NCBI GenBank assembly: GCA_902578805.1
Contig: CACHEH010000007.1
Span: 1 to 56,501, forward strand
Direction of reading: 5' to 3'
Length of the DNA: 56,501 nt
DNA from: an uncultured SAR116 cluster alpha proteobacterium
GTDB taxonomy: Bacteria > Pseudomonadota > Alphaproteobacteria > Puniceispirillales > Marisalimonadaceae
The first letter of the stretch is position 1. Every line of letters begins with the position of its first letter. This document shows, one piece after another, positions 39,948 through 56,418 of the stretch. The notes beneath the pieces are model-generated. The model ran no database searches and was not told the origin of the DNA. It saw nothing but the letters and a program-made list of their open reading frames with translations. Both the position numbers and the translations under genes were made by a program.

Positions 39948-40055
39948 AGGTTAAACCTAGAACAACATAAACATTAATTTTAAAATATTTAATATAATTA
40001 TTAATTAATTTTTTTTTGTTTACTAGTTTTGAATAAAATAAGTTATTCTATTCAG

Positions 40056-40598
40056 ATGTGTGGAAGATTTGTTATTTCGTCAAAAAATGCATTCAATTTA
40101 GAATATGAAGTATCGTATAATGTATGTCCGTCACAATTAGTTCCAGTAAAAACCAAAGAAAAATCGCTGTTAATGAAATGGTCATATTCTCCATTATGGA
40201 AACAAGATATGAACCTAATTAATTGTCGTTCTGAAACTATGAATGAAAAGCCATCATTTAAAAATGCAAAGAGATGTATAATTTTTAACAATGGTTGGTA
40301 TGAGTGGCAAAGAAAAGATAATAAAAAAATACCTTATTATCACTTTTCCCAAACTAATTATTTTGCTGGTCTATATAATGAGATTGGTTGTTTAATATTG
40401 ACAAGAAATTCCGTAGATCAAATAAATCATATACATCACAGACAACCTGTCTTGTTAGAAGAGTCTGAAATTACGTCATTTCTTTTAGGAAAAGATATAT
40501 TTAATAGTAATGCAAACAATAATATAAATTTTTATCGTGTTTCTGTGAATGTAAATAATCCAAAAAATAATAATTCATCACTTACAGATATTTATTAA
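40056..40598 (+). CDS. SRAP-family abasic-site sensor (HMCES/YedK)
   Basis: A 180-residue SOS-response-associated peptidase-like protein. I chose the ATG at 40056 because the family needs Met-Cys-Gly-Arg-Phe: after Met removal Cys2 forms the thiazolidine crosslink to abasic sites in single-stranded DNA. Further landmarks are YNVCPSQ (Asn), NCRSETM (usually NARAET), NNGWYEWQ with the active Glu, and HHRQPVLL with the active His. The protein is shorter than E. coli YedK (about 220 residues). The longer frame from 40029 would bury Cys2 and is rejected. Confidence 0.92.
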   Translation: MCGRFVISSKNAFNLEYEVSYNVCPSQLVPVKTKEKSLLMKWSYSPLWKQDMNLINCRSETMNEKPSFKNAKRCIIFNNGWYEWQRKDNKKIPYYHFSQTNYFAGLYNEIGCLILTRNSVDQINHIHHRQPVLLEESEITSFLLGKDIFNSNANNNINFYRVSVNVNNPKNNNSSLTDIY

Positions 40599-40680
40599 TT
40601 ATAAAAAATAGTAAATTAAAAATGTTTAATTTTTTAAATACAACTTGAAAAACATTTATTCTTGAATTAGGGTTTATGTT

Positions 40681-40827
40681 ATGTGTATTGGTTCAACGAC
40701 AAGTTTATTATCTACTTTTATTTTAGCTTTAGTTTCATTTGTGTGTATTTGGAATTACTCTAAAATTAAGGATAACATAAGAAAAATATTTACTAACCAT
40801 TTTTCAAAAAAACCAAACCTACAGTAA
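40681..40827 (+). CDS. Single-span mini-protein, MCIG family copy 1 (48 residues)
   Basis: A short frame opening MCIGSTTSLLSTFILALVSF, then VCIWNYSKIKDNIRK and a basic tail ending KKPNLQ. One membrane span (about 8-26) with Cys at position 2 and a positive tail. A clear paralog lies at 48428 with the same MCIG start, S-x-LS-x-F-x-LAL core and IWNYSKIK. The conservation between two distant copies is strong evidence that both are genes. Function unknown. Confidence 0.68.
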   Translation: MCIGSTTSLLSTFILALVSFVCIWNYSKIKDNIRKIFTNHFSKKPNLQ

Positions 40828-40845
40828 AAAGCAAAAACCTAATAA

Positions 40846-41091
40846 ATGTTAAAACTTATAATCTTTTTAGTTATCATTTTTTCGATTGCTTACTTTTTAT
40901 TTAATTCATTTATGTCCAAAAGAGAGCATAGAAGTACTAAGTTCATCCTTCCAATAATATTAACATTTTTGATTGTAGTAATGATATTTTTTATTTTGCC
41001 AAGATTTGGAATTAATCCTATAGCTCTATTTCAAAATTTTGTTTCTAAAATAATTCCGTTTATTTCAATGTTAAGAGGAATTGTAAGCTAA
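40846..41091 (+). CDS. Small two-span membrane protein (81 residues)
   Basis: A frame MLKLIIFLVIIFSIAYFLFN with a first span at about 2-20, a basic SKREHRSTKF loop, a second span at about 33-53, and a hydrophobic end. It follows the MCIG mini-gene by 18 bases, so the two may be co-transcribed. I recall similar unnamed proteins in marine alphaproteobacteria but cannot assign a family. Confidence 0.55.
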   Translation: MLKLIIFLVIIFSIAYFLFNSFMSKREHRSTKFILPIILTFLIVVMIFFILPRFGINPIALFQNFVSKIIPFISMLRGIVS

Positions 41092-41112
41092 AATTAAGTT
41101 AGTAATTTTTTT

Positions 41113-41694
41113 TCAAATTTTACTGCTAACTTTTTTATTGTTTTTGAAATAACCAGAATAATCTTCATATAAATAACCAGATGGAGAAAAATACTCCCAA
41201 TAACCATCCTTGGTACCGTTTTTATAATTCCCTTGATATTTCAATTGTCCATTATAATAGAAAGCAACCCAAGATCCTGATTTTTTCCCATTCTCAAACT
41301 TACCTTTGTAGCTTATTTCACCATTTTCAAATAGACGTATCCAGTGACCATCTTCAAGATCATTTTTGTATTGACCCTTTTCTATTAAATGACCTCTATT
41401 GTTGTAAGTAATCCAGGCACCATTTTTTCTACCAGTTTTATAATTTGATACAGAAAATAATTGTCCATTAGTGTAATATCTTACCCATGTACCTTCTTTC
41501 ATTCCATCTTGGATCTGGCCTTTAATGTTTCCATTTATCTCTCCACTGAAAGGAATATTGGTATTTTTTTTATAATAAATTCCTTTTTCCCAAATTAAAT
41601 CATCCATGGTTTCACTATGAATAGAACGAACTATAAAAAAGATTAGAAATGTAAAAATAATCATCCAAATGAATTTTATATAAACTGAAATCAC
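41113..41694 (-). CDS. MORN-variant repeat protein (YwqK-like)
   Basis: A 193-residue protein with an N-terminal membrane or signal segment (about 6-25) followed by five to six MORN_2-type repeats of about 23 residues, such as GTWVRYYTNGQL, GAWITYNNRGHL, GHWIRLFENGE, GSWVAFYYNGQL and GYWEYFSPSGYL, joined by G-x-Y-K-N/D. Such repeats form a beta-hairpin ladder. The family includes the B. subtilis YwqK antitoxin, but no toxin gene is adjacent here. It is probably an exported or anchored structural protein. Confidence 0.85.
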   Translation of the reverse strand: MISVYIKFIWMIIFTFLIFFIVRSIHSETMDDLIWEKGIYYKKNTNIPFSGEINGNIKGQIQDGMKEGTWVRYYTNGQLFSVSNYKTGRKNGAWITYNNRGHLIEKGQYKNDLEDGHWIRLFENGEISYKGKFENGKKSGSWVAFYYNGQLKYQGNYKNGTKDGYWEYFSPSGYLYEDYSGYFKNNKKVSSKI

Positions 41695-41697
41695 TTT

Positions 41698-42060
41698 TTA
41701 AATCCACTCATCATTAGGAGCTGTTAAATCTCCTTTTACATTGCCGGTATTTAATATTCCTTTAGGTTCTACTAACATGATTTGACATTCTTCTTCTGAG
41801 GTTGGCTTATGATCTACCCCTTTAGGTACTACTATCATTTCACCTTCATTTATTTCTATGATTTCTGAATCAAATTCTATTTTCATACTACCTTTAATTA
41901 CTATAAAAACTTCATCTGTATCTGAATGATTATGTTTAATAAATTCACCTTTTATTTTAACTAATTTAAATTGATAATTATTCATCTCAGATATTACTTT
42001 TGGAGACCAGTAATCATCAAATTTATTAAATTTAGAATATATGTTAATTGGTTTTGTCAT
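41698..42060 (-). CDS. Cupin-domain protein
   Basis: A 120-residue small beta-barrel. The metal motif is KHNHSDTDEVFIVIKGSMKIE (here GEFIKHNHSDTDE, with two His and a Glu), and the second motif is VVPKGVDHKP with its His. It matches the mannose-6-phosphate isomerase-like or phosphoglucose-type small cupins. The partner reaction is unknown. It lies 3 bases before the MORN gene on the same strand. Confidence 0.88.
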   Translation of the reverse strand: MTKPINIYSKFNKFDDYWSPKVISEMNNYQFKLVKIKGEFIKHNHSDTDEVFIVIKGSMKIEFDSEIIEINEGEMIVVPKGVDHKPTSEEECQIMLVEPKGILNTGNVKGDLTAPNDEWI

Positions 42061-42123
42061 GCAGGTAATTTAAACAAATTTAAAATTAGAGGTAAAGATT
42101 ATTTAATATTTTTTTGAATAGGA

Positions 42124-42333
42124 TTAAAAAATACTTCTTTCTTTTCTCGATTTTAACAAACCGATTGAAACAAATTTTCCAGATTTTGATTTAAAAGTTT
42201 TTCTAAAAATCTTGCTACACTCAAATGCACATTTGGCACATAGAAAAAAATAATCACTATCATTTTTTTCGTATTTACAATTATACAACTTTTTAGAAGG
42301 AATATTACATCTTGAACAATAAAAATTTTTCAT
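42124..42333 (-). CDS. Small zinc-ribbon-like protein, family copy A (69 residues)
   Basis: A cysteine-rich protein: Cys6 and Cys9 (CSRC), Cys19 in LYNCKY, and Cys32 and Cys35 (CAKC), followed by a basic tail. The spacing C-x2-C-x9-C-x12-C-x2-C recurs in the proteins at 42659, 46457 and 48126. The two CxxC pairs probably bind zinc. The first line of the protein also resembles small CxxC proteins common in marine bacteria and phages. Function unknown. Confidence 0.65.
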   Translation of the reverse strand: MKNFYCSRCNIPSKKLYNCKYEKNDSDYFFLCAKCAFECSKIFRKTFKSKSGKFVSIGLLKSRKERSIF

Positions 42334-42365
42334 TACTTGATAATATTTAATTGTTTGCTTTAAAT

Positions 42366-42650
42366 TTAATTTTTTTCTTCATTTTCAAAAATATAGTGAG
42401 ATCCTCCAGAACCTATCATAATTGCTATTATTAATTCTGTATAACCATTTAAAATCAAGGTTTGAATAAGCAACCAAGGGATTATTATTAGAGCACTTAT
42501 TGGTAATATAATTAATATTTTAATTTTCAGATCAATATGTTTGTAGCATAATTTCGTTTTTTCAAAAATCCATTTTAACAAACCGAAAATTAATACACCC
42601 AAAATTATAAACATACAAAATATAAATATTTTAAAAATTATATGTTCCAT
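42366..42650 (-). CDS. Small membrane protein (94 residues)
   Basis: A protein with three hydrophobic segments (about 5-25, 45-66 and 68-82), a central lysine-rich CYKHIDLKIK loop and the end GSGGSHYIFENEEKN. It lies between two members of the zinc-ribbon-like family, with a gap of 8 bases on one side, so it may be part of their transcript. No family is recognised. Confidence 0.5.
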   Translation of the reverse strand: MEHIIFKIFIFCMFIILGVLIFGLLKWIFEKTKLCYKHIDLKIKILIILPISALIIIPWLLIQTLILNGYTELIIAIMIGSGGSHYIFENEEKN

Positions 42651-42658
42651 ATTATTTG

Positions 42659-42892
42659 TTATTTTAATTCATAAAATGGAAGTTCTAATTTTTTTAACAA
42701 AAGTCGACACTTAATAAGAGATTTTATGTTTTGGAATTGAGATCTAAAATTTTTGCCATTTATATTTTTAAAATATCTTATGCAATTCCCACAAAGGTAG
42801 ATCCAATTTTTTTCGGAAAAGTGTTTTTTACAGCTCCAAATTATTTTATGTGGATCAAAACATTCTTTACAAAAACTATTCAACTTAAACAT
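42659..42892 (-). CDS. Small zinc-ribbon-like protein, family copy B (77 residues)
   Basis: The sequence has CKEC at Cys8 and Cys11, Cys21 in IIWSCKK, CGNC at Cys34 and Cys37, then a basic helical tail with SQFQNIKSLIKCRLLL. It shares the C-x2-C-x9-C-x12-C-x2-C pattern with copies A, C and D, and its tail matches copy D (QIENIKRMIRCKL). It probably binds zinc; nucleic-acid binding is possible given the basic tail (inference). It begins 3 bases after a possible 30-residue membrane peptide gene. Confidence 0.65.
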   Translation of the reverse strand: MFKLNSFCKECFDPHKIIWSCKKHFSEKNWIYLCGNCIRYFKNINGKNFRSQFQNIKSLIKCRLLLKKLELPFYELK

Positions 42893-42895
42893 CTT

Positions 42896-42988
42896 TTAAA
42901 AACTCCACTGATTAATCCAATAAGACATAGTTGGAAAAAATACAAAAATTACAAATAAAATTAATAAAATAATTCCTAATTTACTCAT
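42896..42988 (-). CDS. Possible 30-residue membrane peptide
   Basis: The frame MSKLGIILLILFVIFVFFPT ending YWINQWSF encodes a single hydrophobic span. Its stop lies 3 bases before the copy B zinc-ribbon gene. Evidence is only the position and the tidy span-plus-aromatic end. Confidence 0.3.
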   Translation of the reverse strand: MSKLGIILLILFVIFVFFPTMSYWINQWSF

Positions 42989-43111
42989 TACTGATCCCCA
43001 ACTCCAAAGATAATATTAATAATCTCTTCAATAAATAATTTAATTTGTCAGTTTAATTTAAAACTTAAAAGCATTGTACTTTATTTATAAAATTATTATT
43101 AGTTTAAACGT

Positions 43112-43927
43112 TTATATTTTCTTTGAATCAACTGATTGAAAAATAGACATTAACCATTTTTTACATTCTTTATCATTTTTAGGTTTGGCAACAAACTCTT
43201 GGCCGCGTCCAACAATGTCAACTGTATTTTCGTTCCATCTGCTGAGATTTTTGTGATATGACATGCCACAACCACCATGTTTAGGATTTAACCACTTAGG
43301 ACAAATCCATTTAGATTTTTTGACTAGAGGGTTAAAGCTTAGATTTGTAATCTTAGTCGCTTTAAATTTTCCAAACCCTGGAAAATTTTTTAACTCAAAA
43401 CCTTCCAGATTTTTTTTTGCAATGTAAAGAGTATTATTTTTTTTCCATTTACCAATGGTGTGTGGGTGCGAACTTGGGTTTGGTTTCTCTCTTGAATACC
43501 AACTTGGGTCATCTCCAAGTTTTATAATTTTTCCAATCTGAAACCAACCAAACATTCTATAGTGACCAGGGTCTGTTTTAACAAATAAAATTTTTCTTTC
43601 GATTCTTATAGTTTCTCTAAACCATCCCCAAAAGAGAAATAAATCACCCTTTCCAACCTTATTATTTTCTAAGTGAGTTTGTGCGGCGCCAACTTGTCCA
43701 AAATGACCAGTAACTAAATTTGGATCATAGTGACAAGTGTCTGTAGGTCTAATTTTATTTTTAGACAACTGCATTACATCTTTTCCTAAACTGAGATGAT
43801 TGTAGGTAGTTAATGTATTTTTTTTATATGGTATTGGAAGACTTTGAAGGTTACTTCCACTTTTTATACTTGGAATTCCACCTGCAGTGCTATCGAAACC
43901 TTTTCTACTAAATATAATCTTCATCAT
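43112..43927 (-). CDS. Nmad3-like protein (nucleotide modification associated domain 3)
   Basis: A 271-residue protein beginning MMKIIFSRKGFDSTAGGIPS, then LQSLPIPYKK. This opening, and the later TDTCHYDPNL, GQVGAAQTHL and DLFLFWGWFR, match my recollection of the Nmad3 family, predicted in genome-context studies to act with DNA base hypermodification. The C-terminal part has GGCGMSYHKNLSRW and GRGQEFVA. No DNA methylase, hydroxylase or restriction gene is adjacent, so it stands alone here. Length is normal and the frame is intact. Confidence 0.72.
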   Translation of the reverse strand: MMKIIFSRKGFDSTAGGIPSIKSGSNLQSLPIPYKKNTLTTYNHLSLGKDVMQLSKNKIRPTDTCHYDPNLVTGHFGQVGAAQTHLENNKVGKGDLFLFWGWFRETIRIERKILFVKTDPGHYRMFGWFQIGKIIKLGDDPSWYSREKPNPSSHPHTIGKWKKNNTLYIAKKNLEGFELKNFPGFGKFKATKITNLSFNPLVKKSKWICPKWLNPKHGGCGMSYHKNLSRWNENTVDIVGRGQEFVAKPKNDKECKKWLMSIFQSVDSKKI

Positions 43928-44121
43928 TTATAAAATTAATCAAAATAAGTGTTAAAGGTAAAGACTTATAATAGTATACCAAATTACATTTATAGATTAT
44001 GATAAATGATAAGAAAATAACTGATATAGGTTTTTTTATAATGAACTTTTATTATACTTGAAAATAAAAGTAAAAGTGAGAGTTAATTTATTAAAAATAA
44101 TAATAAAATATAGAATTAATA

Positions 44122-44868
44122 ATGAACCAAAATTTTTATCGTTATATTTCTTTTTTTGGGTTGTCTTTTTTAAGAGAACAGAACCTTCAACAATTGAGAA
44201 TGCTTGAAAAAGACATTTATTTATTATTAGAAGATTTAGCAATAAAAAATGGAGCGGATCCTAAGAATATTAAAAGTCAGATATGCCAAGATATTTTTGT
44301 ACTTTACACGCTAAATTGGAAACGTAATGGTTTTTTTGTTGAATTTGGTTCTACAAATGGTATTGACTTAAGTAATAGTTATTTACTTGAAAAAGATTTT
44401 GGATGGAAGGGTATTTTGTGTGAACCTGCGTCCATTTGGAAAGAAGAACTAAAAAAAAATAGAAATTCAATTTTAGATTTTAGATGTGTATGGAAAACTT
44501 CAGGTGAAACTCTTGATTTAATTATTCCAAGTAATCCTGAGTTTTCTCAAATTTCGATTTTAAAAAATCAAAAAAAATTTAGTGTGGATCAATCAGAAAA
44601 AGTCGAAACTGTTTCTTTAATTGATTTGTTAAATAGTTACAATGCACCAAAAAACATAGATTATTTATCTATTGATACTGAAGGAAGTGAATATGAGATC
44701 TTGGAAGCATTTGATTTTTCAAGATATCGGATATCAATCATAACTTGTGAACATAATTTTTCAAAAAAAAGAGAGAAAATATTTAAATTATTAAATAAGA
44801 ATGGTTATCAGAGAGTCTTTCAAGGTTTGTCAAGATGGGATGACTGGTATATTAAAACTAATAATTAG
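44122..44868 (+). CDS. FkbM-family SAM-dependent methyltransferase
   Basis: A 248-residue protein whose core GFFVEFGSTNGIDLSNSYLL is the FkbM motif I (usually FVDVGA-DG), followed by WKGILCEPASIW with the acidic ribose-binding residue. YLSIDTEGSEYEILEAFDF is the diagnostic FkbM motif (DTEGSE). FkbM enzymes O-methylate sugars or small molecules. It stands alone at the left edge of the relic island. About 45 N-terminal residues precede the fold. Confidence 0.88.
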   Translation: MNQNFYRYISFFGLSFLREQNLQQLRMLEKDIYLLLEDLAIKNGADPKNIKSQICQDIFVLYTLNWKRNGFFVEFGSTNGIDLSNSYLLEKDFGWKGILCEPASIWKEELKKNRNSILDFRCVWKTSGETLDLIIPSNPEFSQISILKNQKKFSVDQSEKVETVSLIDLLNSYNAPKNIDYLSIDTEGSEYEILEAFDFSRYRISIITCEHNFSKKREKIFKLLNKNGYQRVFQGLSRWDDWYIKTNN

Positions 44869-44950
44869 TTATTCTAGTTTTAGCATTATAATAAAAATAT
44901 TAAGAATACTCTTTTGTTGTGAAATTTATTAATTTTCAAATAGTTAAATA

Positions 44951-45061
44951 TTATTTTTTTTTGTTATTTATTTTTCGATCAAATTTATTATGAAGTCTCT
45001 TTGTAAAAATTCTCCATCTAGACAATTTAATTTGAGTGTTCCAAGAATAACCTCTTTTTTT
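44951..45061 (-). pseudogene. Integrase N-terminal fragment, remnant copy 1
   Basis: The minus strand reads KKRGYSWNTQIKLSRW, then RIFTKRLHNKFDRK, and soon a stop. It aligns with the better-kept copy at 48642 (KRGKSWNAQVRISGWRSFTK). Both resemble the arm-type DNA-binding domain at the start of phage-type tyrosine integrases. The catalytic domain is missing, so it is a relic. Confidence 0.55.
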
Positions 45062-45152
45062 TCACATCCCATAGTTTGACACCTTTTACTGTCTCAAATC
45101 TATTTCAAAATTGAGTATTCTCTGAGGTGTGTTTGGTTTCTATTCTTTTGAC
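45000..45152. repeat. Diverged long direct repeat, copy 1
   Basis: This stretch matches 48742-48894 in the same orientation over about 150 bases. The best-kept part, 45075-45130 against 48818-48873, covers the region before the integrase fragment, including TGAGTATTCTCTGAGGTGT. A third short copy of the ACTGT-TCAAATCTGTGTCAAAA part sits at 45305-45330. The repeats bracket the relic island. Confidence 0.7.
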
Positions 45153-45176
45153 TAATTGATATTAACAAGAAAAAAC

Positions 45177-45245
45177 TGGTGAGTTCGAGTAGATTAAAAC
45201 TCCTGACCCATAGCTTCGTAGTCTAGTACTCTAACCAGTTGCCCC
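45177..45245 (-). pseudogene. Degenerate tRNA-like sequence, tRNA-Arg(ACG) remnant
   Basis: The minus strand shows AACTGGTTAGAGTA, like a D-arm, then GACTACGAAG with a loop CTACGAA that places anticodon ACG, a GGGTC variable loop, a damaged T-arm (AGGAGT-TTTAATC-TACTC) and a closing CACCA. The anticodon stem has only three pairs and the acceptor halves do not pair. It is probably a tRNA relic next to the integrase remnant, as at an attachment site. Confidence 0.45.
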
Positions 45246-45345
45246 TTTTAAACCCATATTTTCTCCCAGATTTATTATTAAATTAGTTTTCATTTTACAG
45301 CGTTACTGTGTCAAATCTGTGTCAAAATCTGAGGGTATTTAATTA

Positions 45346-45726
45346 TTACTTAGGAAAAAAGAAAGCAGAACTGAATTTTATTTTCCATTTATTGTCTTCT
45401 TTAATAAAGATATAAAATGAACTTATTTCTTCAAGTGGTTCATTATTAACCTTAACTCTCAATGCCTCTTTTAAAACTAAATGTGCTTTTTCTTTACTTA
45501 TTTCTACCACATCAATACTAAGTGCAATTGTGTCTTTGTAACCTCTATTTTTTAATTCATTTAGGTTAGAATGAAACTCATTATATTCTTTTATTTCACC
45601 ATCGAGAAATCTATAGTTAGGAAAACTTAAATAGTTTTCAACTTCTTTTGTATCTCCTTTTATGAATGCTTTTACATAACCGTCATAAGCTTCTAAGACT
45701 TCTTGTTTAAGAATTAACTTATTCAT
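45346..45726 (-). CDS. NTF2-like (SnoaL-type) protein
   Basis: A 126-residue cone-shaped alpha-beta fold candidate: an N-terminal helix with AYDGYVKAFIKGDTKEVENYL, then LSFPNYRFLDGEI, and late strands WKIKFSSAFFFPK. These match small NTF2-like proteins, many of unknown role and some with hydrolase or isomerase activity. It overlaps the GFA-like gene by 8 bases, so the two are translated together. It starts the gene content of the relic island. Confidence 0.72.
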   Translation of the reverse strand: MNKLILKQEVLEAYDGYVKAFIKGDTKEVENYLSFPNYRFLDGEIKEYNEFHSNLNELKNRGYKDTIALSIDVVEISKEKAHLVLKEALRVKVNNEPLEEISSFYIFIKEDNKWKIKFSSAFFFPK

Positions 45727-46345
45727 TATGAAGTTCCTCTAAATTATCACCCCTTATTAAATCCAAGACTTTAATCTTTCCAATTTTTGAAATGATTTCT
45801 CTAATTGTTGTTCCTTTAGCAGGAGTTTTTGGTGGAGTAAGATACTCAGAAATTGGTTCAATAGATAGAAATCTTTTTCTTTCTTGAGGATATTTTCTTG
45901 AATGAAAAACAGGAATAGTATCAGAGCCTAGTTCAGCAAATTCCCCAGGATAATCTTGTAAATTAAGGACTGCTAATGGTGGTATTTGTACATTAAAATT
46001 CTGCTTACAATAATCAGGTTGAATCATAAACACATTATTTTGATAGTTGACATGGTCAACGGCAAAACAAGAAAAACATTTCTTACAATATATCCTCGTA
46101 GAACTTGCATCCCCTCTTAGTTGAGTTGCAATCATATTCTCAATACCACTATAACTTTGAATATCTGAACGGAAATATACAGAATAGAGTATGTCTTTAG
46201 GTTTTTTGCCTCCATTTACCTCTGCCCATCGCAATGCCTGCCTACAATCTTCACATGCACACATTACTGAATATTTAGGTAATGAGTCATTAAGAAATAA
46301 TTGGCATGAACCACATGAACAAGAAATTTTATTTTTTTTATCCAT
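45719..46345 (-). CDS. GFA/CENP-V-like zinc protein (DUF6151-like)
   Basis: A 208-residue protein with a zinc-binding layout: CSCGSC at the start, CACEDC near residue 30, and YCKKCFSCFAVDH near 100. This fits the GFA domain (glutathione-dependent formaldehyde-activating-like) fold with two structural zinc sites. The C-terminal half (about 110-205) lacks cysteines after Cys113 and may be a separate regulatory part. Whether it has enzyme activity is unknown; many GFA-fold proteins do not. Its stop overlaps the downstream NTF2-like gene's start. Confidence 0.75.
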   Translation of the reverse strand: MDKKNKISCSCGSCQLFLNDSLPKYSVMCACEDCRQALRWAEVNGGKKPKDILYSVYFRSDIQSYSGIENMIATQLRGDASSTRIYCKKCFSCFAVDHVNYQNNVFMIQPDYCKQNFNVQIPPLAVLNLQDYPGEFAELGSDTIPVFHSRKYPQERKRFLSIEPISEYLTPPKTPAKGTTIREIISKIGKIKVLDLIRGDNLEELHNE

Positions 46346-46456
46346 AAATATAGTCTAATCAAAATATTCTGTTAAGGTAAAGAGTAATTGCTATTTCTCT
46401 GTGGATACTATCGTGGTTTATAGATTACAGTTTTGGTTGTCAGTTTCAGGGGTAGA

Positions 46457-46637
46457 TTATTTCTTTTTACTCTTCCAAGTGCCACCATATTGATAAGTAA
46501 CCCTCGAATTCGGTTTTAACCTTTCGCAGACACTTTCCACATAGAAACACCCAATCCTTAAGTTCTTTATATCTACAACGATAAAGAACCTCTTTCTGGT
46601 CTTTGCATTTAAAACAATCCTTTGTTCTAACTCTCAT
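46457..46637 (-). CDS. Small zinc-ribbon-like protein, family copy C, C-terminus frameshifted
   Basis: From ATG 46637 the frame reads MRVRTKDCFKCKDQKEVLYR, then Cys21, WVFLCGKCLRKVK, with the pattern C-x2-C-x9-C-x11-C-x2-C. As it stands it ends LSIWWHLEE at 46467 (56 residues). One base out of frame, the DNA encodes YQYGGTWKSKKK with a stop at 46457. The YGGTWK end is, as I recall it, the conserved tail of small CxxC proteins in marine bacteria and cyanobacteria. Removing one T from the TT in GTTACTTATC joins the two. So the tail is frameshifted or misread. Confidence 0.65.
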
Positions 46638-46691
46638 AAGTCTAATAATGATTTGGTTTTTTAATAAATCAAAAAAGATAACTGAAATAAA

Positions 46692-46713
46692 AAGAGAGTC
46701 CGAAGACTCTCTT
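46692..46713 (-). terminator. Rho-independent terminator without an annotated gene
   Basis: On the minus strand AAGAGAGTC-TTCG-GACTCTCTT has a 9-base perfect stem with a stable UUCG-type loop and is followed by TTTTATTTC. No annotated minus-strand gene lies upstream in the 46714-47067 gap; only a 13-codon frame (MFKINGTKIALIL) ending 14 bases before the terminator stands there. On the plus strand the same bases lie in a 24-codon frame from 46648. The 46638-47067 gap holds nothing else I can support. The hairpin may end an unannotated small RNA. Confidence 0.7.
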
Positions 46714-47067
46714 ATATCTTAAGGTAGGAAAATTACTTACAAAATTAATGCAATTTTCGTACCATTTATTTTAAACATTTTATATTTGTTAAAATAGAGA
46801 CAAGAAATTTTAAATGAGAAAGGGGCTTAAAACATTTTAAAAAGTTGTGAGTATAGAAACTCTTTACTGGGTTTTTTAATTCTTGGAACTTTATATTTTT
46901 TCTAAAAATTTATCACACAAGAAAATCTGATCCAAATAAGAATCAACAATAAAAAAATAATTACTTAAATTTAATTCAATAAATTTTTAAATATTTTGTT
47001 TCAAATAATTTGTGTTTTGTTAAGGTTAACTATCTACATTAATAATTTTAAATTTTGAGGTTTTTTT

Positions 47068-47556
47068 ATGAAAATAATATTAATTATTTTAAGTTTTTTA
47101 TTTGTTAATTTTAGCACCTATGCAGATGGACATTCTGGAAAAATACATCTTGAGGGTTTTGGTGCATGGTCTTTAAATATTATGAATGCTGGTAATGGTA
47201 ACCTTTCAGTAACATATGACGGTTTATATAGTGGTGTTGCTATGAACGGAACTAAATTTGGAAATAACTCATCTGTTCAATGTGTGGGTGGACTTACTAC
47301 ATCAAAAGGTAAATTTAATGACGAAACTGGTATGTGTAAATTTTTATTTGCTAATGGGGATACTGCTTTTATAAAATATAAAGGTTCAGGAGAAGTAGGT
47401 AAGAGTGGTTCAGGAACTTTTGAATTCATCGGAGGTACTGGTAAATATAAGTCTATATCAGGAACAGGGACTGTGACACGAGTTCAAATACAAGCGGCAA
47501 AAAAAGGGTTTACACAAAGTAAGAATATATTCAAGGGAAGTTATAAACTAAACTAA
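47068..47556 (+). CDS. Exported beta-rich protein, hypothetical
   Basis: A 162-residue exported protein with a signal peptide cut before DGHSGK (about residue 20). The body has Gly- and Thr-rich strands, including FEFIGGTGKYKSISGTGTV, a pattern shared by small lipocalin-like or allene-oxide-cyclase-like barrels. Two cysteines (near 72 and 91) may pair. AGG precedes the ATG weakly (TTGAGG). It sits inside the relic island, and a 17-base perfect inverted repeat begins 44 bases after its stop. Confidence 0.6.
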   Translation: MKIILIILSFLFVNFSTYADGHSGKIHLEGFGAWSLNIMNAGNGNLSVTYDGLYSGVAMNGTKFGNNSSVQCVGGLTTSKGKFNDETGMCKFLFANGDTAFIKYKGSGEVGKSGSGTFEFIGGTGKYKSISGTGTVTRVQIQAAKKGFTQSKNIFKGSYKLN

Positions 47557-47599
47557 TCCAAGTTCTTAAAATTCTTTAAAGTCGTATGTATATAACTTA

Positions 47600-47645
47600 G
47601 ATTTAGTAACTAATTATGAAAATTAAGTTAATTAGTTACTAAATC
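47600..47645. repeat. Perfect 17-base inverted repeat with 12-base loop
   Basis: GATTTAGTAACTAATTA and TAATTAGTTACTAAATC pair fully. There is no T-run on either side, so it is not a classic terminator. It could be a weak terminator for the gene ending at 47556, a small-RNA hairpin, or a recombination site. Confidence 0.6.
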
Positions 47646-47845
47646 ATTACCAAGTAAAAATGATATTATTTAAGATTGATGAGCAACACTGTGTGTGCGA
47701 TTGAGTAAGAGCAATTTATAAAAGATAACTAAAATAAAAAGAAACACCGAATACGCTCTAATATTTGAGTGCGGAAAATATTTTTATTATTTATGTAATA
47801 TTCAAGCAATTTTTGCATAGTATTCATAATCAGTTTTCACAGGGT

Positions 47846-47959
47846 TTAAAACCTCATTGGGTTAAGGTACATAGCAGGGTTTATATTAAAAAATATATAA
47901 CCTTTTAACAAAACTAAAAAACTTGCAATTCCCAAAAATATCTTAAAATCTTTACTCAT
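47846..47959 (-). CDS. Possible 37-residue membrane peptide
   Basis: The frame MSKDFKIFLGIASFLVLLKG, then YIFFNINPAMYLNPMRF, has one hydrophobic segment. It follows the 48-residue gene at 47983 by 23 bases on the same strand. Support is from position and composition only. Confidence 0.35.
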   Translation of the reverse strand: MSKDFKIFLGIASFLVLLKGYIFFNINPAMYLNPMRF

Positions 47960-47982
47960 AATATTTAACTACCTTTTAAATC

Positions 47983-48129
47983 TTAAACTATAAAAAAGTG
48001 ATAAACTAACAATCCTACTAAAATACCCTTGATAAATGATATCCAGGCAACTCCATGGTCGGAAACACCAAGTTTTTCTTTCCACCAATCTATTTGTTTT
48101 TTTTCCCAGTTTATATAATTTTGTATCAT
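47983..48129 (-). CDS. Small membrane protein (48 residues)
   Basis: A short frame MIQNYINWEKKQIDWWKEKL, then GVSDHGVAWISFIKGILVG and a hydrophobic end (about residues 30-48). Its ATG overlaps the stop of the copy D zinc-ribbon gene as ATGA, a sign of translational coupling. Amphipathic, Trp-rich start followed by one span. Unrecognised. Confidence 0.55.
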   Translation of the reverse strand: MIQNYINWEKKQIDWWKEKLGVSDHGVAWISFIKGILVGLLVYHFFIV

Positions 48130-48348
48130 ATTTCTACCTTAAATAATTGAATATAAATTTTTGTTGGGTTCAACTTACATCTTATCATTCGTTTAATGTT
48201 TTCAATTTGACTAATAAATCTAATTCTTACGCTTCTTATATCTCTAATACAGTTATAAACAAATAGATACCCATTCTTTATGATGACCATATTTACATCT
48301 CCATAAAGTCTTGAATGGGTATTCACATTTCATACAAAAATGACTCAT
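48126..48348 (-). pseudogene. Small zinc-ribbon-like protein, family copy D, frameshifted
   Basis: From ATG 48348 the frame reads MSHFCMKCEYPFKTLWRCKY, then HKEWVSICL and a TAA. In the next frame it goes on as NCIRDIRSVRIRFISQIENI, KRMIRCKLNPTK and ends at 48126. Joined by removing one T of a TTT run it gives the full C-x2-C-x9-C-x11-C-x2-C pattern (ICYNCIRD). It then aligns with copy B along its whole length, including the tail (SQIENIKRMIRCKL against SQFQNIKSLIKCRL). The stop is in ATGA overlap with the next gene. Confidence 0.65.
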
Positions 48349-48427
48349 TTTTTAAATCCTTTAAACTCACTTTATTTTTCTCCACTTTTTTTTTATCTTG
48401 AAATCACAGACTAATTAAGTAGATAAT

Positions 48428-48571
48428 ATGTGTATAGGTTTTTCATCTAGTTTTTTATCTAAATTTTTGTTAGCACTAGCGTGCTTCAATGGAATATGGA
48501 ATTATTCTAAAATCAAAAATTATGTAACCAAACAATATATAAGATATTTTCCCCAGAAATTTAAAATTTAA
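48428..48571 (+). CDS. Single-span mini-protein, MCIG family copy 2 (47 residues)
   Basis: The frame MCIGFSSSFLSKFLLALACF, then NGIWNYSKIKNYVTKQ, matches copy 1 at 40681 (MCIG, S-x-LS-x-F-x-LAL, IWNYSKIK). It has one span (about 8-26) and a basic, aromatic tail. The two copies are about 7.7 kb apart in the same orientation; this one sits in the relic island. Their DNA differs at many sites while the protein core is kept, which points to selection. Confidence 0.65.
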   Translation: MCIGFSSSFLSKFLLALACFNGIWNYSKIKNYVTKQYIRYFPQKFKI

Positions 48572-48641
48572 TTCAATTATTTTCCAATTATATAACTAGA
48601 GAACTATATTTCCGCATAAATTTTTTAAAACTTTCCGCATT

Positions 48642-48836
48642 TTATAAACTTTTAACATCTTTTTCTGGAATTGGTTTTGACCTAAGTTCTTTTTCAAAAT
48701 TAACAACCCATTCAGTTGCATCTAATTTAGTCTTAAATATTTTTGTAAAACTTCTCCATCCAGATATTCTTACTTGAGCATTCCAAGATTTTCCTCTTTT
48801 ACGAACATAACCCCTAATTTGACGCCTTTTACTGTT
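48642..48836 (-). pseudogene. Integrase N-terminal fragment, remnant copy 2
   Basis: A 64-codon open frame without a usual start codon: NSKRRQIRGYVRKRGKSWNA, QVRISGWRSFTKIFKTK, then LDATEWVVNFEKEL and a stop after EKDVKSL. The pattern RKRGKSWNAQVR...F-T-K-x-A-x-W is the arm-binding N-terminal domain of tyrosine integrases. The rest of the integrase is missing. It has tRNA-3'-end-like sequence on its upstream side. Confidence 0.62.
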
Positions 48837-48894
48837 TCAAATCTGTGTCAAAACTGAGTATTCTCTGAGGTGTATTTAATATTCGTTCTTTTAA
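48742..48894. repeat. Diverged long direct repeat, copy 2
   Basis: This matches 45000-45152; see that entry. It holds the integrase fragment's first 30 codons and its upstream region with TCAAATCTGTGTCAAAA. The two repeats lie 3.7 kb apart in the same orientation. Confidence 0.7.
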
Positions 48895-48916
48895 GTATAT
48901 GATATTTAAAAAAAAT

Positions 48917-48955
48917 TGGTGCGCTCGAGATGAGGTGTGATGCCTAACCAGAGCA
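48917..48955 (-). other. tRNA 3'-end-like remnant
   Basis: On the minus strand the sequence runs GCTCTGGTTAGGCATC ... ATCTCGAGCGCACCA. The CTCGAGCGCACCA end looks like a tRNA T-arm and acceptor end with CCA, and it is followed by a T-run, as in copy 1 (ACTCGAACTCACCAG). A full tRNA cannot be folded. It probably marks an old attachment site. Confidence 0.35.
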
Positions 48956-48961
48956 ATGGTT

Positions 48962-49185
48962 TTATCTAAACTCCAACAATATTAATAGCTTAGCAAATAC
49001 AGTGAGTCCGTCAATCATAAAAAGCTTGTCTACAACTTTGTCTACAGTAGACACAGCCCATGGGTCCGGGGTTACTGCACCCTTTCCCCAATCAACTTTA
49101 GTTAATCATTAAGGGAGGTCGGCGCATTGATCGTGGTCCATGGAACACTGACCAGGGTTCAATGATGGGTTTGAAATAAGATTGA
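48962..49185 (-). other. Locally GC-richer patch with protein-like fragments
   Basis: The patch at about 49030-49180 stands out from its AT-rich surroundings. On the minus strand an open stretch 48962-49105 reads KVDWGKGAVTPDPWAVSTVD, then KVVDKLFMIDGLTVFAKLL, with no start codon. Just upstream another frame ends NPGQCSMDHDQCADLP. These look like ends of genes brought in from elsewhere. I cannot identify them. Confidence 0.4.
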
Positions 49186-49456
49186 TTTAGTAAACTATAA
49201 GTTAATTTTAAATTACAAATTTTCTGTACAATCAAAATCCAATTATAAATAATTAGCAATTTATTTTAAATTAAATTTGACCAAAAAATAATCAATTTCA
49301 AATTGGACTAATTTTAATTGAATTTCAAATAATTGATATAATTGAATAAAATTTAAATTTCAAATCTCAACAGACGTGGGTTCTAATATTTGCAATTCAT
49401 AAAAATAACTCATCAATATTTACTGTTCTTATTTAATTCGAGAAAGGTGAAATATT
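49186..49456. other. Very AT-rich upstream region of the urea transporter operon
   Basis: About 270 bases with no supported gene. It is full of AATTTCAAAT-like short repeats (for example near 49288 and 49320) and ends with the ribosome site GAGAAAGGTG before urtA. It should hold the urt promoter and regulator sites, but I cannot place a -10 or an operator with confidence. Confidence 0.5.
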
Positions 49457-50728
49457 ATGAGATTATTAATTACTATATTGTTTTTATGTTTTAGCAGTCT
49501 AGGTTTTGCAGATGGACATAAGAAGCCAATAAAAATTGGAATTTTACATTCATTATCTGGAACAATGGCTATTTCAGAAACTACATTAAAAGATACAATG
49601 TTGATGTTAATTGAACAACAAAACAAAAAAGGTGGCATCTTAGGTAGAAAAATAGAGCCCGTAGTTGTTGATCCCGCCTCAAATTGGCCCTTATTTGCTG
49701 AAAAAGCGAGAGAACTTTTAACAGTTCAAAAAGTTGATGTTTTATTTGGGTGTTGGACTTCTGTCTCAAGAAAATCTGCACTACCAGTTCTTGAAGAGTT
49801 AAACGGTTTACTTTTTTATCCAGTACAATATGAAGGAGAAGAGAGCTCTAAAAATGTTTTCTATACAGGCGCATCTCCAAATCAGCAGGCTATCCCAGCA
49901 ACAGATTATTATTTAGAAGAGCTTGATGTTAAAAAGTTTGCTTTATTAGGAACTGACTACGTATATCCTAGAACAACTAATAAAATCTTGAAACAATATC
50001 TTATAGATAAAGGAATACCAGAAAGTGATATTTTTGTAAATTATACTCCATTTGGGCATTCTGATTGGTCTAAAATTGTTTCAGATGTAGTTTCTTTAGG
50101 AGCTGATGGTAAAAAAGTTGGAGTTATTTCTACCATTAATGGAGATGCTAATATTGGATTTTATAAAGAGTTAGCTGCTGCAGGTGTTAAAGCAGATGAT
50201 ATCCCAGTAGTTGCCTTTTCAGTTGGTGAAGAAGAATTATCTGGATTAGATACAACAAATTTAGTTGGTCACTTAGCAGCATGGAATTATTTTCAGTCAG
50301 CTGAATCTGATCTTAATTCAAGTTTTATAAAAGATTGGAAAGCTAAAATGGGAAATAAAAGAGTTACAAACGATCCTATGGAAGCTCACGTTATTGGATT
50401 TAACATGTATGTTAAAGCCGTTGAAAAGGCCGGAACTACAGATGTTGATGCTGTTAGAAAAGCTATGTATGGTATTAAAGTTCCAAACTTGACTGGTGGT
50501 ACGGCTGAAATGTTGCCAAATCATCATTTATCTAAGCCTGTCTTAATTGGTGAAATATTGGAAAATGGCCAGTTTGACATTATAAGTCAAACTAAAGAAG
50601 TGCCAGGAGATGCATGGACAGATCATTTACCTGAATCTGCTGTTTTAAAATCTGATTGGAAGTCCCTTGGTTGTGGTATGTACAATACTAAGACAAATAC
50701 TTGTATTCAACTCAAGTCAAATTATTAG
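49457..50728 (+). CDS. urtA: Urea ABC transporter substrate-binding protein UrtA
   Basis: A 423-residue periplasmic receptor with a signal peptide cut before DGHKKP (about residue 20). IKIGILHSLSGTMAISE and LLTVQKVDVLFGCWTSVSRK are diagnostic for UrtA as against the amide receptor FmdD. It ends SLGCGMYNTKTNTC with two Cys. It binds urea for import by UrtB-E. AGAAAGGTG precedes the ATG. It is the first gene of a complete five-gene operon. Confidence 0.95.
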   Translation: MRLLITILFLCFSSLGFADGHKKPIKIGILHSLSGTMAISETTLKDTMLMLIEQQNKKGGILGRKIEPVVVDPASNWPLFAEKARELLTVQKVDVLFGCWTSVSRKSALPVLEELNGLLFYPVQYEGEESSKNVFYTGASPNQQAIPATDYYLEELDVKKFALLGTDYVYPRTTNKILKQYLIDKGIPESDIFVNYTPFGHSDWSKIVSDVVSLGADGKKVGVISTINGDANIGFYKELAAAGVKADDIPVVAFSVGEEELSGLDTTNLVGHLAAWNYFQSAESDLNSSFIKDWKAKMGNKRVTNDPMEAHVIGFNMYVKAVEKAGTTDVDAVRKAMYGIKVPNLTGGTAEMLPNHHLSKPVLIGEILENGQFDIISQTKEVPGDAWTDHLPESAVLKSDWKSLGCGMYNTKTNTCIQLKSNY

Positions 50729-50783
50729 ATAAACTATATTGAGGATAATGCTATGGTTTCCATAGCATTATCAATATTAATTT

Positions 50784-52796
50784 ATGAAGTACTTATTAAT
50801 TATTTTATTTTCATTATTAAGTTTCAATTCTGCATTTTCAGAAGAGAACTTTGACAATTTTTTATTTAAAAACTCTAAACTGATTATAAATAGTTCTTCA
50901 AAAACAGTTGGAACATTTTTAGAAAAAATAAATGTTTATGATCAAAATACCGTATCAAGATTTTTAAATCTCTGGAAAAATAAGAAATTATTTTACATAA
51001 AAGAAACAAAAAAAATTGTACTAATTTCCAAGTTTGATAATAAAACATATTACGCAATTGATATTTTTTCCAACGCTAAAATTGGAAAAAAGAAAAAAAA
51101 AGATTTCAAAAAAATAAAACCGAATAGTGGTGTAAGGGCAAAGATTGCAACTGCACTTGTGAACTTTCAAATATTTAGTAATGATAAAAATAAAAGGATA
51201 AATAGCATAAATGCTCTTGAAAAAAAAATATTACCTGAACATTTAAAACTCCTTAGAAAAGCATTTTTATTAGAGGAAGATGATAGGTTAAAAATTAAAA
51301 TAAAAAAATTATTACAATTTGCAATTTTACAACATGGAACTGACGATAAAGAGAAAATTAAAGTTCTGAATGAATTAAAGACTAATACTTCAATAGAAGT
51401 AAGAGCAGTTTTGTCAAAACTCCTAAGGACATCTGAAATTAAAGTTACTAGAAATATTGAAGATTTAAATAATTTAAATATTGCTCAAATAATTAAACCA
51501 GAAGTAATTAGTAAAAAACAATTCGGTGAAGTTATAAAAAGTTTTTTCTATAAAGAAAAATTAAAACTTAGTGTTATTGATGCTTACAAAATAGCACAAA
51601 AAAATGGATTTTTAGATAAGAGAGTCAGTTTAAATGAATTAAAAATAATTTTAGAAAATAACATTGTCGACAATAAAATTTTAGGAATTGATATAAAGGA
51701 ATTTAATGAAAATTCTAAAAGAATCGAAGTTTATAATAAATTAGCCAAGATAAAAAATCTTAATATTTATCGAGATGAAACAGAATTATTAAATGATTTA
51801 AAACAACTACATTTTTACAAAATTTACATTGAGAAAAATAAATACATAACAAACAAGACTAAACAAGTTTTAGATTCAATTAATTTTAAAGTTAAATTCT
51901 ATAAATATTTAGATTTATTTATTGATGGTCTTAGTCTTAGTTCTATATATTTTCTTGGTGCTATTGGCTTGGCAATAACATTTGGAGTCATGCGTGTGAT
52001 TAATATGGCTCACGGTGAATTTATAATGATGGGAGCTTATACTGGCTATGTTGTTCAATCATATATTACTAATCATACATTATCTCTGATAATAGCTTTT
52101 CCTCTCGCTTTTATAATTACTTTTATTGCAGGGGTTATAATGGAAAGGTTGGTGATAAAACATTTATATAAAAATCCTCTTGATACTTTGCTAGCAACTT
52201 TTGGTATAAGTATAGCTCTTCAACAACTTGCTAAAAATATTTTTGGTACTCAGGCTAGACCTTTAACATCACCTTCTTGGTTAGATGGATCTTTAATAAT
52301 AAATGATGATCTTTCGATAAGTTACATCAGGATAGCTATATTTGTTTTGGGAGTTTTATTTTTTTTAATATTATTATTTGTAATGAAAAAAACTAGATTT
52401 GGATTAGAAACTAGATCCGTAACTCAAAACCCTGTAATGGCATCGAACATGGGTGTTAACACTGAAAAAATAAATATGTTAACTTTTGGTTTTGGGTCAG
52501 GCATTGCTGGTGTTGCTGGTGTTGCTATAGGTTTGTTTTCCAAGGTCACATCTGAACTTGGCTCAGAATACATTGTTCAAAGTTTTATGACAGTTGTAGT
52601 TGGTGGTGTAGGAAGTATTTGGGGTACACTTGCAGGCGCTTCATTAATTGGCTTTTTACAAAAGTTTATAGAATGGTTTAATCCTTCTAATACATTAGCT
52701 GCTCAAACATATATGATTATATTTATAATTTTATTTATTCAATTTAGACCAAGGGGATTAATTGCCTTAAAAGGGAGAGCAGCAAATGATAACTGA
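50784..52796 (+). CDS. urtB: Urea ABC transporter permease UrtB
   Basis: A 670-residue permease with a signal peptide (cut near residue 19), a long periplasmic part of about 340 residues rich in Lys and helices, and a C-terminal LivH-like membrane domain of about eight spans (about 375-660; GAIGLAITFGVMRVINMAHGE here shown in part as FGVMRVINMAHGE, later GGVGSIWGTLAGA). UrtB proteins commonly have an N-terminal periplasmic extension, but many are 520-550 residues, so this extension is on the long side. The next gene starts inside its last codons. Confidence 0.93.
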   Translation: MKYLLIILFSLLSFNSAFSEENFDNFLFKNSKLIINSSSKTVGTFLEKINVYDQNTVSRFLNLWKNKKLFYIKETKKIVLISKFDNKTYYAIDIFSNAKIGKKKKKDFKKIKPNSGVRAKIATALVNFQIFSNDKNKRINSINALEKKILPEHLKLLRKAFLLEEDDRLKIKIKKLLQFAILQHGTDDKEKIKVLNELKTNTSIEVRAVLSKLLRTSEIKVTRNIEDLNNLNIAQIIKPEVISKKQFGEVIKSFFYKEKLKLSVIDAYKIAQKNGFLDKRVSLNELKIILENNIVDNKILGIDIKEFNENSKRIEVYNKLAKIKNLNIYRDETELLNDLKQLHFYKIYIEKNKYITNKTKQVLDSINFKVKFYKYLDLFIDGLSLSSIYFLGAIGLAITFGVMRVINMAHGEFIMMGAYTGYVVQSYITNHTLSLIIAFPLAFIITFIAGVIMERLVIKHLYKNPLDTLLATFGISIALQQLAKNIFGTQARPLTSPSWLDGSLIINDDLSISYIRIAIFVLGVLFFLILLFVMKKTRFGLETRSVTQNPVMASNMGVNTEKINMLTFGFGSGIAGVAGVAIGLFSKVTSELGSEYIVQSFMTVVVGGVGSIWGTLAGASLIGFLQKFIEWFNPSNTLAAQTYMIIFIILFIQFRPRGLIALKGRAANDN

Positions 52797-53955
52797 CATG
52801 AATAAATCTGTAAAAAAACATTCGCTGATTTTTTTAATAACTATTTTTTTATTTACGTTGTTAGTCACCTTTTTAAGTGAACCTTTTGGTATAAACTTTA
52901 TATCAACAAGCTTTGTAAAAGTCCTTGGAAAAACTCTTTGCTTATGTATTGCTGCAATTGCTATGGATGTTGTGTGGGGGTATTGTGGTATTTTATCCTT
53001 AGGTCATTTTGCTTTTTTTGGCTTAGGTGGATACATGATAGGCATGTGGTTAATGTATGAGAGAACGTCTATTATTGTATTGAATTCTTTAGATGACTCA
53101 CAATTACCCTTTACTGAGATAGAATTACAAGAAGCGATAGGTAATCAAATTTTTGGTGTTGTTGGAGGAACAGAAATACCACTTATTTGGACATTTGCAG
53201 ATAATTTATATTTTCAAATAATTTTTGTTATTTTAATCCCTGGTTTAATAGCATTTATTTTTGGTTGGCTAGCTTTTCGTTCAAGAGTAACTGGAGTATA
53301 TTTGTCAATTTTGACTCAAGCAATGACCCTAGCTTTATCTTTATATCTATTTCAAAATGATAGCGGGTTAAGAGGAAATAACGGATTGTCTGGATTGCAA
53401 AATATTCCTCATCTTGAAAACTTAAGTCAATCTACAATTTCAATATTATTTTTATGGTTAAGTTCAATCGGACTTATATTTTCATTTGTAATTTTTAATT
53501 ATATAATTCAAAGTAAATTTGGATCAGTAATTACCGCTATCAGAGACAATGAAACGCGTCTTCGTTTTTTTGGATACAATGTAGAAATATACAAACTTTT
53601 TATATTTGTTATCACAGCCATAATTACTGGATTAGCAGGAGCTATATATTATCCTCAAGCTGGTATAATAAACCCAGCTGAGATTGCTCCTATTGCCTCA
53701 ATATATTTAGCTGTCTGGGTTGCTATTGGTGGACGAGGAAAATTGTATGGTGCAATTTTAGGTGCAGCGTCTGTTTCTTTGCTATCTTCTTGGTTTACTG
53801 GAGGAAATGCTCCAAATATTCCCCTCGGTTTTTTTACAATTGAATGGGTGAATTGGTGGACTGTATTTTTAGGAATTGGTTTTGTGGCAATAACAATTTT
53901 TAGTAAGGGTGGTTTAATTGGTATGCTAAATACATTATTGGTTAAAATCAAATGA
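52786..53955 (+). CDS. urtC: Urea ABC transporter permease UrtC
   Basis: A 389-residue LivM-type permease with about ten spans. CGILSLGHFAFFGLGGYMIG and the cytoplasmic coupling loop IRDNETRLRFFGYN are typical. It overlaps urtB by 11 bases from the ATG at 52786; a second in-frame ATG at 52798 follows the urtB stop directly. With UrtB it forms the membrane channel for urea. Confidence 0.94.
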   Translation: MITDMNKSVKKHSLIFLITIFLFTLLVTFLSEPFGINFISTSFVKVLGKTLCLCIAAIAMDVVWGYCGILSLGHFAFFGLGGYMIGMWLMYERTSIIVLNSLDDSQLPFTEIELQEAIGNQIFGVVGGTEIPLIWTFADNLYFQIIFVILIPGLIAFIFGWLAFRSRVTGVYLSILTQAMTLALSLYLFQNDSGLRGNNGLSGLQNIPHLENLSQSTISILFLWLSSIGLIFSFVIFNYIIQSKFGSVITAIRDNETRLRFFGYNVEIYKLFIFVITAIITGLAGAIYYPQAGIINPAEIAPIASIYLAVWVAIGGRGKLYGAILGAASVSLLSSWFTGGNAPNIPLGFFTIEWVNWWTVFLGIGFVAITIFSKGGLIGMLNTLLVKIK

Positions 53956-54692: not shown

Positions 54693-54694
54693 TT

Positions 54695-56266: not shown

Positions 56267-56387
56267 ATTTAAACATCTCTAATATTTGAAATTCTTCAAT
56301 TCTAATTAATGCAACTCTGAATGTATTAATCAGAGATTCAAAATAGTTTGAAAATAGTTTATTACTAAAATTGTCCTCCCCCTATTA

Positions 56388-56418
56388 AGAGCATATTCTG
56401 TTTTACAGAGTATGCTCT
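56388..56418. terminator. Long hairpin, probable terminator
   Basis: AGAGCATATTCTGT, three bases, ACAGAGTATGCTCT: a 14-pair stem with one G-T pair. No strong T-run follows on either strand, so it may be a terminator for a gene beyond the window or another kind of RNA hairpin. Confidence 0.5.

Follow-up and report, generated by a model that had tools for sequence, protein, structure and literature searches.

A probable tRNA-Arg(ACG) island of stacked, decayed integrative elements, with a urt cassette attached through a junction repeat, in a SAR116 bacterium

The stretch of DNA analyzed here (the window) comprises 56,501 nucleotides (nt) of contig CACHEH010000007.1 (assembly GCA_902578805.1) from an uncultured SAR116 bacterium, which presumably belongs to AAA536-G10, a family placed within the SAR116 clade (passages of PMC8547437). 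Its right-hand end very probably holds elements that were stacked at a tRNA-Arg(ACG) gene and decayed to stubs, together with urt (urea-transporter) cargo joined to them through a ~105-base-pair (bp) junction repeat (JR). An earlier sequence-only reading of positions 44951–49185 had pointed to two direct repeats of ~150 bases at 45000 and 48742, an integrase N-terminal fragment in each and tRNA-3′-end-like sequence beside each, and all of these were recovered. A repeat search placed the blocks at 44978–45172 and 48720–48915 (110 + 81 nt, 79% and 77% identical, offset 3742–3743), and each holds a tyrosine integrase leader and N-terminus, with a decayed tRNA-Arg(ACG) end next to it. Copy A is a leader plus N-terminal pseudogene (44975–45152, minus strand), of which 44975–45070 matched residues 2–33 of the intact integrase of the same genome at 50% (E = 4.8e-5), and copy B (48615–48812, minus strand) is an N-terminal pseudogene that matched residues 2–67 at 80% (E = 3.8e-30); each match contained one internal stop. 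Beside copy A lies a partial tRNA-Arg(ACG) (45177–45241, minus strand; nt 13–77, 85%, E = 6.8e-14), which was assigned as the attachment core of element B/A, its extent being as in intact elements (nt 12–77), and beside copy B lie 17 bp of the tRNA 3′ end at 48917–48933. Since ARAGORN found zero tRNA genes within the window and Rfam gave nothing at E ≤ 1 in 44800–49500, these tRNA-like stretches are remnants and not genes.

A 25-bp repeat family has three members, at 45303–45327 and, as further copies, at 45086 and 48829. We call its TTTGACACAG-like site pairs arm-like, taking them to be arm sites by analogy with lambda-type integrases. The short third repeat that had been noticed at 45305 is present, but it is a pair of TTTGACACAG sites distal to the core (45303–45327, minus strand) and not a third integrase end; another pair lies in the leader of copy B (48829–48853, minus strand). 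Starting at the tRNA end of copy B, an element-end module (48917–49067, plus strand) contains a reversed tRNA-Arg 3′ end and tandem arm-like repeats (49025–49047) and runs up to the JR (49068–49171, plus strand; nhmmer E = 1.4e-28), which has a guanine-plus-cytosine (GC) content of 51% compared with 30% for the window.

The JR is followed by the urt cassette (49172–56501, plus strand), with urtA (49457–50728), urtB (50784–52796), urtC (52786–53955), urtD (53952–54692) and urtE (54695–55390) on the plus strand and a LysR gene (55379–56266) on the minus strand. The cassette is 99.3–99.4% identical to those of five other species, and its right JR would lie beyond the contig end. UrtB has 670 residues, and the UrtB model spans residues 379–665 only. 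The contig stops at 56501, about where the right JR is expected, which would fit an assembly break at a repeat.

Relatives were taken from 40 genomes of the genus (handles G001 onward; the window contig is C7 of its own genome). In a first comparison, the sequence right of position 49128 was shared with five species of the genus at 99.1–99.6% identity over up to 7.3 kilobases (kb) and with two genomes of another genus at 94–97%, and the sequence left of this junction was unrelated in each genome compared. Among six species the cassette was 99.3–99.8% identical in all 15 pairs, whereas core identity of the urt-bearing species, taken at one 1.24-kb locus and measurable in 10 of the 15 pairs, was 87.1–93.7%, and that of longer flanks was 83.9–87.3%. 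The cassette was found at three tRNA islands: tRNA-Arg in the window, tRNA-Met in G003 and G038 (between tRNA-Met remnants and the full tRNA-Met) and tRNA-Ser(GGA) in G020 and G022 (downstream of the tRNA). In the tRNA-Met and tRNA-Ser islands JR stands on both sides of it, and G013 has a cut copy (99.6%). As judged from these identities, the urt gene block appears to have moved recently between species. A 3.4-kb cassette was 99.6% identical in G003 and G022, compared with 93.4% for their core (one pair).

Intact integrases with the N-terminus of copies A and B, and a definable attachment core, had been suggested as things to look for, and both were found. Contig C20 of the same genome carries a functional tRNA-Arg(ACG) followed by an open 327-residue tyrosine integrase (PHROG integrase match, E = 2.8e-50) and with it a third copy of the repeat sequence. 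Integrase matches at E ≤ 1e-20 were obtained in 23 of the 40 genomes, and full-length integrases with 84–91% identity are present in seven (that of G037 with an internal stop). All eight integrases, the own copy (100%) included, lie beside tRNA-Arg(ACG). Four of six loci of a clade at 72–74% lie beside tRNA-Arg(TCG), the other two having no tRNA in the retrieved stretch, which is cut short; more distant integrases lie beside tRNA-Val(GAC) or tRNA-Pro(TGG), or have no tRNA within reach. When viral contigs (IMG/VR) were searched with the integrase, two distant relatives were obtained, the best at 29% and the other at 28%.

Five tRNA-Arg(ACG) elements were retrieved with both ends, from G016 (6.8 kb), G021 (5.0 kb), G008 (6.1 kb), G038 (7.2 kb) and G007 (9.5 kb), and in all five the order is full tRNA, integrase, cargo and a 66-bp partial tRNA (nt 12–77). 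This partial tRNA is the attachment core, and pairs of arm-like sites accompany it on either side: a TTTGACACAG-like pair was present at +68/79 nt after the full tRNA (69/80 in two) and another at −84/−73 nt before the partial tRNA in seven of seven elements, two of which lack an intact integrase (G018, without integrase match, and G014, with a stub only). Of these sites the window retains the distal pair, at −85/−74, and one proximal site of copy A. Because arm-like sites are kept at both ends even where no intact integrase is present, such elements may be mobilized in trans.

The site itself is variable. Similarity of the window to its relatives on the downstream flank ends at 43948–43956; positions 39.8–43.95 kb correspond to the conserved downstream flank of the island in G008, G016, G038 and G007, where the island end is also syntenic, and 39813–43948 is 89.7% identical in G008. 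Since C20 bears the tRNA-side flank, the window most likely holds the tRNA-distal end of this tRNA-Arg(ACG) island. In 13 of the 40 genomes tRNA-Arg(ACG) and the Nmad3 flank were on one contig, with distances of 27 bp to ~19.7 kb. The gap is 27 bp in G032 (an empty site), 1.9 kb in G006, 3.0 in G018, 3.1 in G020, 7.2 in G002, 7.8 in G003, 13.0 in G016, 13.7 in G008 and 15.6 in G007. For the other four, in which the Nmad3 end was unmatched, the distance was taken to the next conserved stretch: 13.6 kb in G009, 14.8 in G038, 17.3 in G001 and 19.7 in G021. The same sequence follows the tRNA CCA in G032 and the partial tRNA in G018, as for an empty and a one-element site. Cargo elsewhere at the site includes a copper operon, a solute-binding protein, methyltransferases, a LAGLIDADG protein and an HNH protein. 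Variable cargo between conserved flanks had been anticipated, and cargo does differ between genomes, G001, G009 and G021 having much island content in common. The locus thus shows the features by which tRNA-targeting integrative elements are recognized, namely an integrase beside a tRNA, a direct repeat of the tRNA 3′ end, an empty site and variable content. The earlier idea of repeated insertion of tRNA-targeting elements at one site, followed by erosion, agrees with the intact elements, the empty site and the decayed stubs.

The island is larger than the part first singled out (44951–49185), which lies inside it: it runs from 43957 to beyond 56501, off the contig end, so that 43957–56501 is the part held in the window, with an FkbM-type methyltransferase gene added on the left and the urt cassette on the right. 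The FkbM gene (44122–44868, plus strand; PF05050, E = 1.5e-16) gave a tblastn match in the window only, among 16 islands compared. Genes for GFA-like, NTF2-like and exported proteins had been named between the repeats, and they are present, but the first two labels fall below the Pfam cut-offs (NTF2-like, 45346–45726, minus strand, DUF4440 E = 5e-4 and SnoaL_3 E = 0.0033; GFA-like, 45719–46345, minus strand, GFA E = 0.012) and the exported protein (47068–47556, plus strand) matched no Pfam or NCBIfam family. The partial tRNA is immediately preceded by the GFA-like and NTF2-like genes in G018, G016, G008, G038, G007, G014 and the window, not in G021, and on this comparison these genes are the usual distal end of the tRNA-Arg element. 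A repeated ~103-bp leader (46343–46462, minus strand; 33 distinct matches among the retrieved loci) occurs upstream of several different cargo genes, and sits ~100–136 nt before the starts of the GFA-like gene, of an exported-protein gene of 183 amino acids and of genes of 110 and 113 amino acids; it looks like a promoter or 5′ region common to these genes. The window also encodes three small Cys-rich proteins of like pattern (42124–42333, 42659–42892 and 46467–46637, the last on the minus strand), and the last recurs in several islands (tblastn, 33–86%).

These features are best explained if small integrative elements insert at a tRNA-Arg(ACG) landing site of which the window holds the distal end. 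The integrase would join the partial tRNA of the element (nt 12–77) to the chromosomal tRNA, leaving the tRNA whole on one side and the 66-bp partial tRNA on the other, and repeated insertion would build a tandem array, copies B and A being two elements whose integrases have worn to N-terminal stubs. Next to copy B there would be a further element that has an end module of its own (48917–49067) and carries the urt cassette through JR. Elements lacking an intact integrase may have been moved in trans, and by some route from cell to cell.

In family AAA536-G10 JR was found at the joints of attachment modules and operon-sized cassettes. By blastn, 20 of the 25 genus genomes examined had it, and none of 16 genomes belonging to other families in the order; this count overlooks partial JRs, which a profile finds in G007 and G016. 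The junction sequence of G038 as query found matches in 50 of the 58 genomes of the family, which in six cases lay entirely outside JR. An exact JR pattern was found in 31 stretches among the GTDB 220 species genomes, labeled SAR116, SCGC AAA536 and, once, uncultured Alphaproteobacteria. JR was also considered as a phage or plasmid sequence and this was rejected, as it was unmatched in 50,697 phage and 72,556 plasmid records and three exact patterns gave 0 matches in IMG/VR. Folding of the DNA at 49050–49180 gave no unusual structure (z = 0.59), and the RNAalifold consensus of 22 JR copies was weak (−12.0 kcal/mol), so that no structured site is claimed for JR.

Among 27 contigs picked for having at least two JRs, adjacent JRs were co-oriented in 43 of 44 pairs; the sole opposite-orientation pair is in G002:C5 (L218 7234–8543). 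Seven JRs follow tRNA-Met in series in G035:C4, and inter-JR lengths recur: 7395–7397 bp (5 contigs), 6542–6544 (3), 3373–3375 (3) and 1336–1338 (3). Nutrient cassettes joined at JR include urea genes, an iron-type ABC transporter with CobW, and LysR with pirin. A tRNA 3′ end motif lies a fixed distance to the left in 36 of the 69 distinct JR copies whose left end is intact (Ser in 22 at 105–113 nt, reversed Arg in 9 at 139–142 nt, Met in 5 at 18–20 nt). Of 5000 stretches drawn at random from the same loci, 119 contained any of the three motifs. The tRNA-Met type integrase and the next 4.3 kb are 97% identical between G003:C12 and G038:C6, above their flanks. The orf382–orf640 cassette, 98.9% identical between G035 and G012, was dropped as common to G019, with which its DNA does not align.

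The switch between neighbors takes place inside JR. The 160 bp of the window from the reversed tRNA core into JR are identical to G010 at 159 positions, and the 300 nt left of that core only at 206 of 251 (82%); everything right of the JR matches the urt cassette. The middle of the window JR matches neither the G010 nor the urt side, which makes it a mosaic, and resembles the JRs of G006 (98%) and G003:C1 (94%). Two joined cassettes are 99.7% alike in G038 and G013, and the JR between them has ~14 differences in ~104 bp (hand count). A mosaic JR, and a differing JR between unchanged cassettes, point to exchange with gene conversion inside JR. JR copies would then most likely recombine by homologous recombination and gene conversion, through which cargo would be swapped between elements of different tRNA specificity. 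We tentatively propose, at a little short of an even chance, that JR is the functional joint of a SAR116 cassette system in which attachment modules for different tRNA genes and operon-sized nutrient cassettes meet at one conserved ~105-bp sequence, so that cargo may change specificity and cross species without an integrase of its own.

It is possible, although rather unlikely, that JR is instead a site-specific recombination site for a dedicated recombinase, integron-like with operon-sized cassettes. The uniform orientation of JRs and the exact inter-JR lengths would suit such a site, as would the split JRs (1–85 or 1–86, then 46/47/60–105) around the 1.3–3.4-kb cassettes, which have a common stretch around GACCGTAGTCCAT. 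A candidate recombinase is the tRNA-Met type integrase, whose C-terminal stub was found within ~60 nt after JR in L207, L209, L211, twice in G035:C4 and in G037:C1. The 3′ end of this integrase gene (L219 15146–16238, L064 4509–5617) includes a stretch similar to the tRNA-Met anticodon region, and an attachment core may therefore overlap the gene end. Against such a site-specific reaction, the urt breakpoints vary from copy to copy inside JR, and JR itself varies between unchanged cassettes, both as in gene conversion.

JR could also act in cis as a signal for transfer or packaging, comparable to oriT, pac or cos, in elements without an integrase; it would then be conserved for this role and only secondarily be a recombination hot spot, but this is unlikely. 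Its conservation across elements that differ in arm repeats, tRNA targets and cargo, and its high GC content, would be expected of such a signal, but the phage and plasmid records gave no JR match, nor did IMG/VR for the three exact patterns, and its consensus fold is weakly supported. Relaxase PF03432 was found in 0 of 40 genomes (control matches in 1 of 14; other relaxase families not searched), which likewise speaks against a transfer signal.

Several observations weigh against the account as a whole or against the role proposed for JR. The 17-bp tRNA match at copy B has an E value of 0.53 when taken alone, although its position is in register with the integrase leader. C20 and C7 are linked by synteny and not by assembly, in a genome that is 70% complete. 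In the remaining 33 of the 69 JR copies all three tRNA motifs are absent upstream, and the 3374- and 1337-bp cassettes have breakpoints at nearly one place in JR, which fits site-specific recombination. Core identity rests on a single locus, and other common cassettes were near the core value (G022–G018, 94.0% vs 92.9%; copper, G003–G008, 92.2% vs 93.2%; G008–G002, 92.8% vs 91.1%; G003–G002, 95.2% vs 91.1%); these are not clearly closer than the core, and recent movement is therefore shown chiefly for urt and the one 3.4-kb cassette. A local segmental duplication could have produced copies A and B, both of which carry leader and integrase stub, but this is improbable and not favored, as the copies diverge independently from the intact copy (50% vs 80%) and in relatives the same element has a tRNA at one end and a partial tRNA at the other. 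Cross-contamination between single-cell genomes is very improbable as the source of the near-identical urt cassettes: the JR records are mostly single amplified genomes of one collection, but the cassettes differ by 0.2–0.7% and have different neighbors on the same contigs.

Stacked elements of this type, targeting a tRNA, are of a known kind, and JR-jointed modular cargo is a variant without description in the literature searched (titles, starts of abstracts, and passages of PMC10872708, PMC12416821, PMC11389934 and PMC8547437, in which no JR-like repeat is described). Classical tRNA-targeting islands have in common with the SAR116 island a tRNA target, an adjacent tyrosine integrase, a direct repeat and an empty site, but the SAR116 island has in addition tandem arrays, members without an integrase in which every arm-like site is kept, and the JR module. 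Tycheposons are reportedly marked, in their founding paper, by a deep-branching recombinase clade and hallmark genes. Dispersal in vesicles or capsids is a further tycheposon feature, and the IMG/VR searches that bear on it gave 0 matches for the three JR patterns and at best a 29% relative for the integrase. In passages of PMC10872708 they are described from Prochlorococcus and other marine plankton as tRNA-bordered elements of 4–200 kb with a tyrosine recombinase and nutrient cargo, with tRNA-Met border and xerD. On the features so described, the SAR116 island is alike in being bordered by a tRNA and in having a tyrosine recombinase and nutrient cargo; it differs in its paired arm-like sites, 66-bp partial tRNA, many integrase-less elements and JR joints. 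The additive flexible genomic islands of Methylophilaceae, in which repeats of the tRNA-Lys end (last 20 bp) mark successive insertions, are alike in their tRNA-end repeats, and the same passages describe no JR-like repeat between modules for them (PMC10872708). Satellites are small helper-dependent elements (passages of PMC11389934); PICI and PICMI satellites and integrative mobilizable elements are alike in being small, and those of SAR116 would also need a helper (PICMI abstract; passages of PMC11389934). No phage- or satellite-type genes were found in the 20 of 30 listed cargo proteins that were scanned with Pfam (the other 10 were not scanned).

JR arrays resemble integrons in being co-oriented cassette arrays with a repeated site between cassettes, but differ from them in that JR cassettes measure 1.3 to >8 kb and hold several genes on both strands. 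Integron attC sites carry the boxes RYYYAAC and GTTRRRY; JR ends in GGGTT, and the bases that follow fit RRRY inconsistently (by eye). The own intact integrase scored 29.9 bits on the integron integrase model TIGR02249 (cut-off 265; no genome-wide IntI search was made).

The island provides a concrete anatomy for the gain and loss of nutrient operons in ocean bacteria that are streamlined and have no obvious plasmids or prophages, with named parts: an integrase, attachment sites, an empty site and cargo-exchange joints. If JR is an exchange joint, cargo would be uncoupled from both integrase and tRNA target, and gene flow in SAR116 would be predictable from one short sequence, which could be tested in metagenomes.

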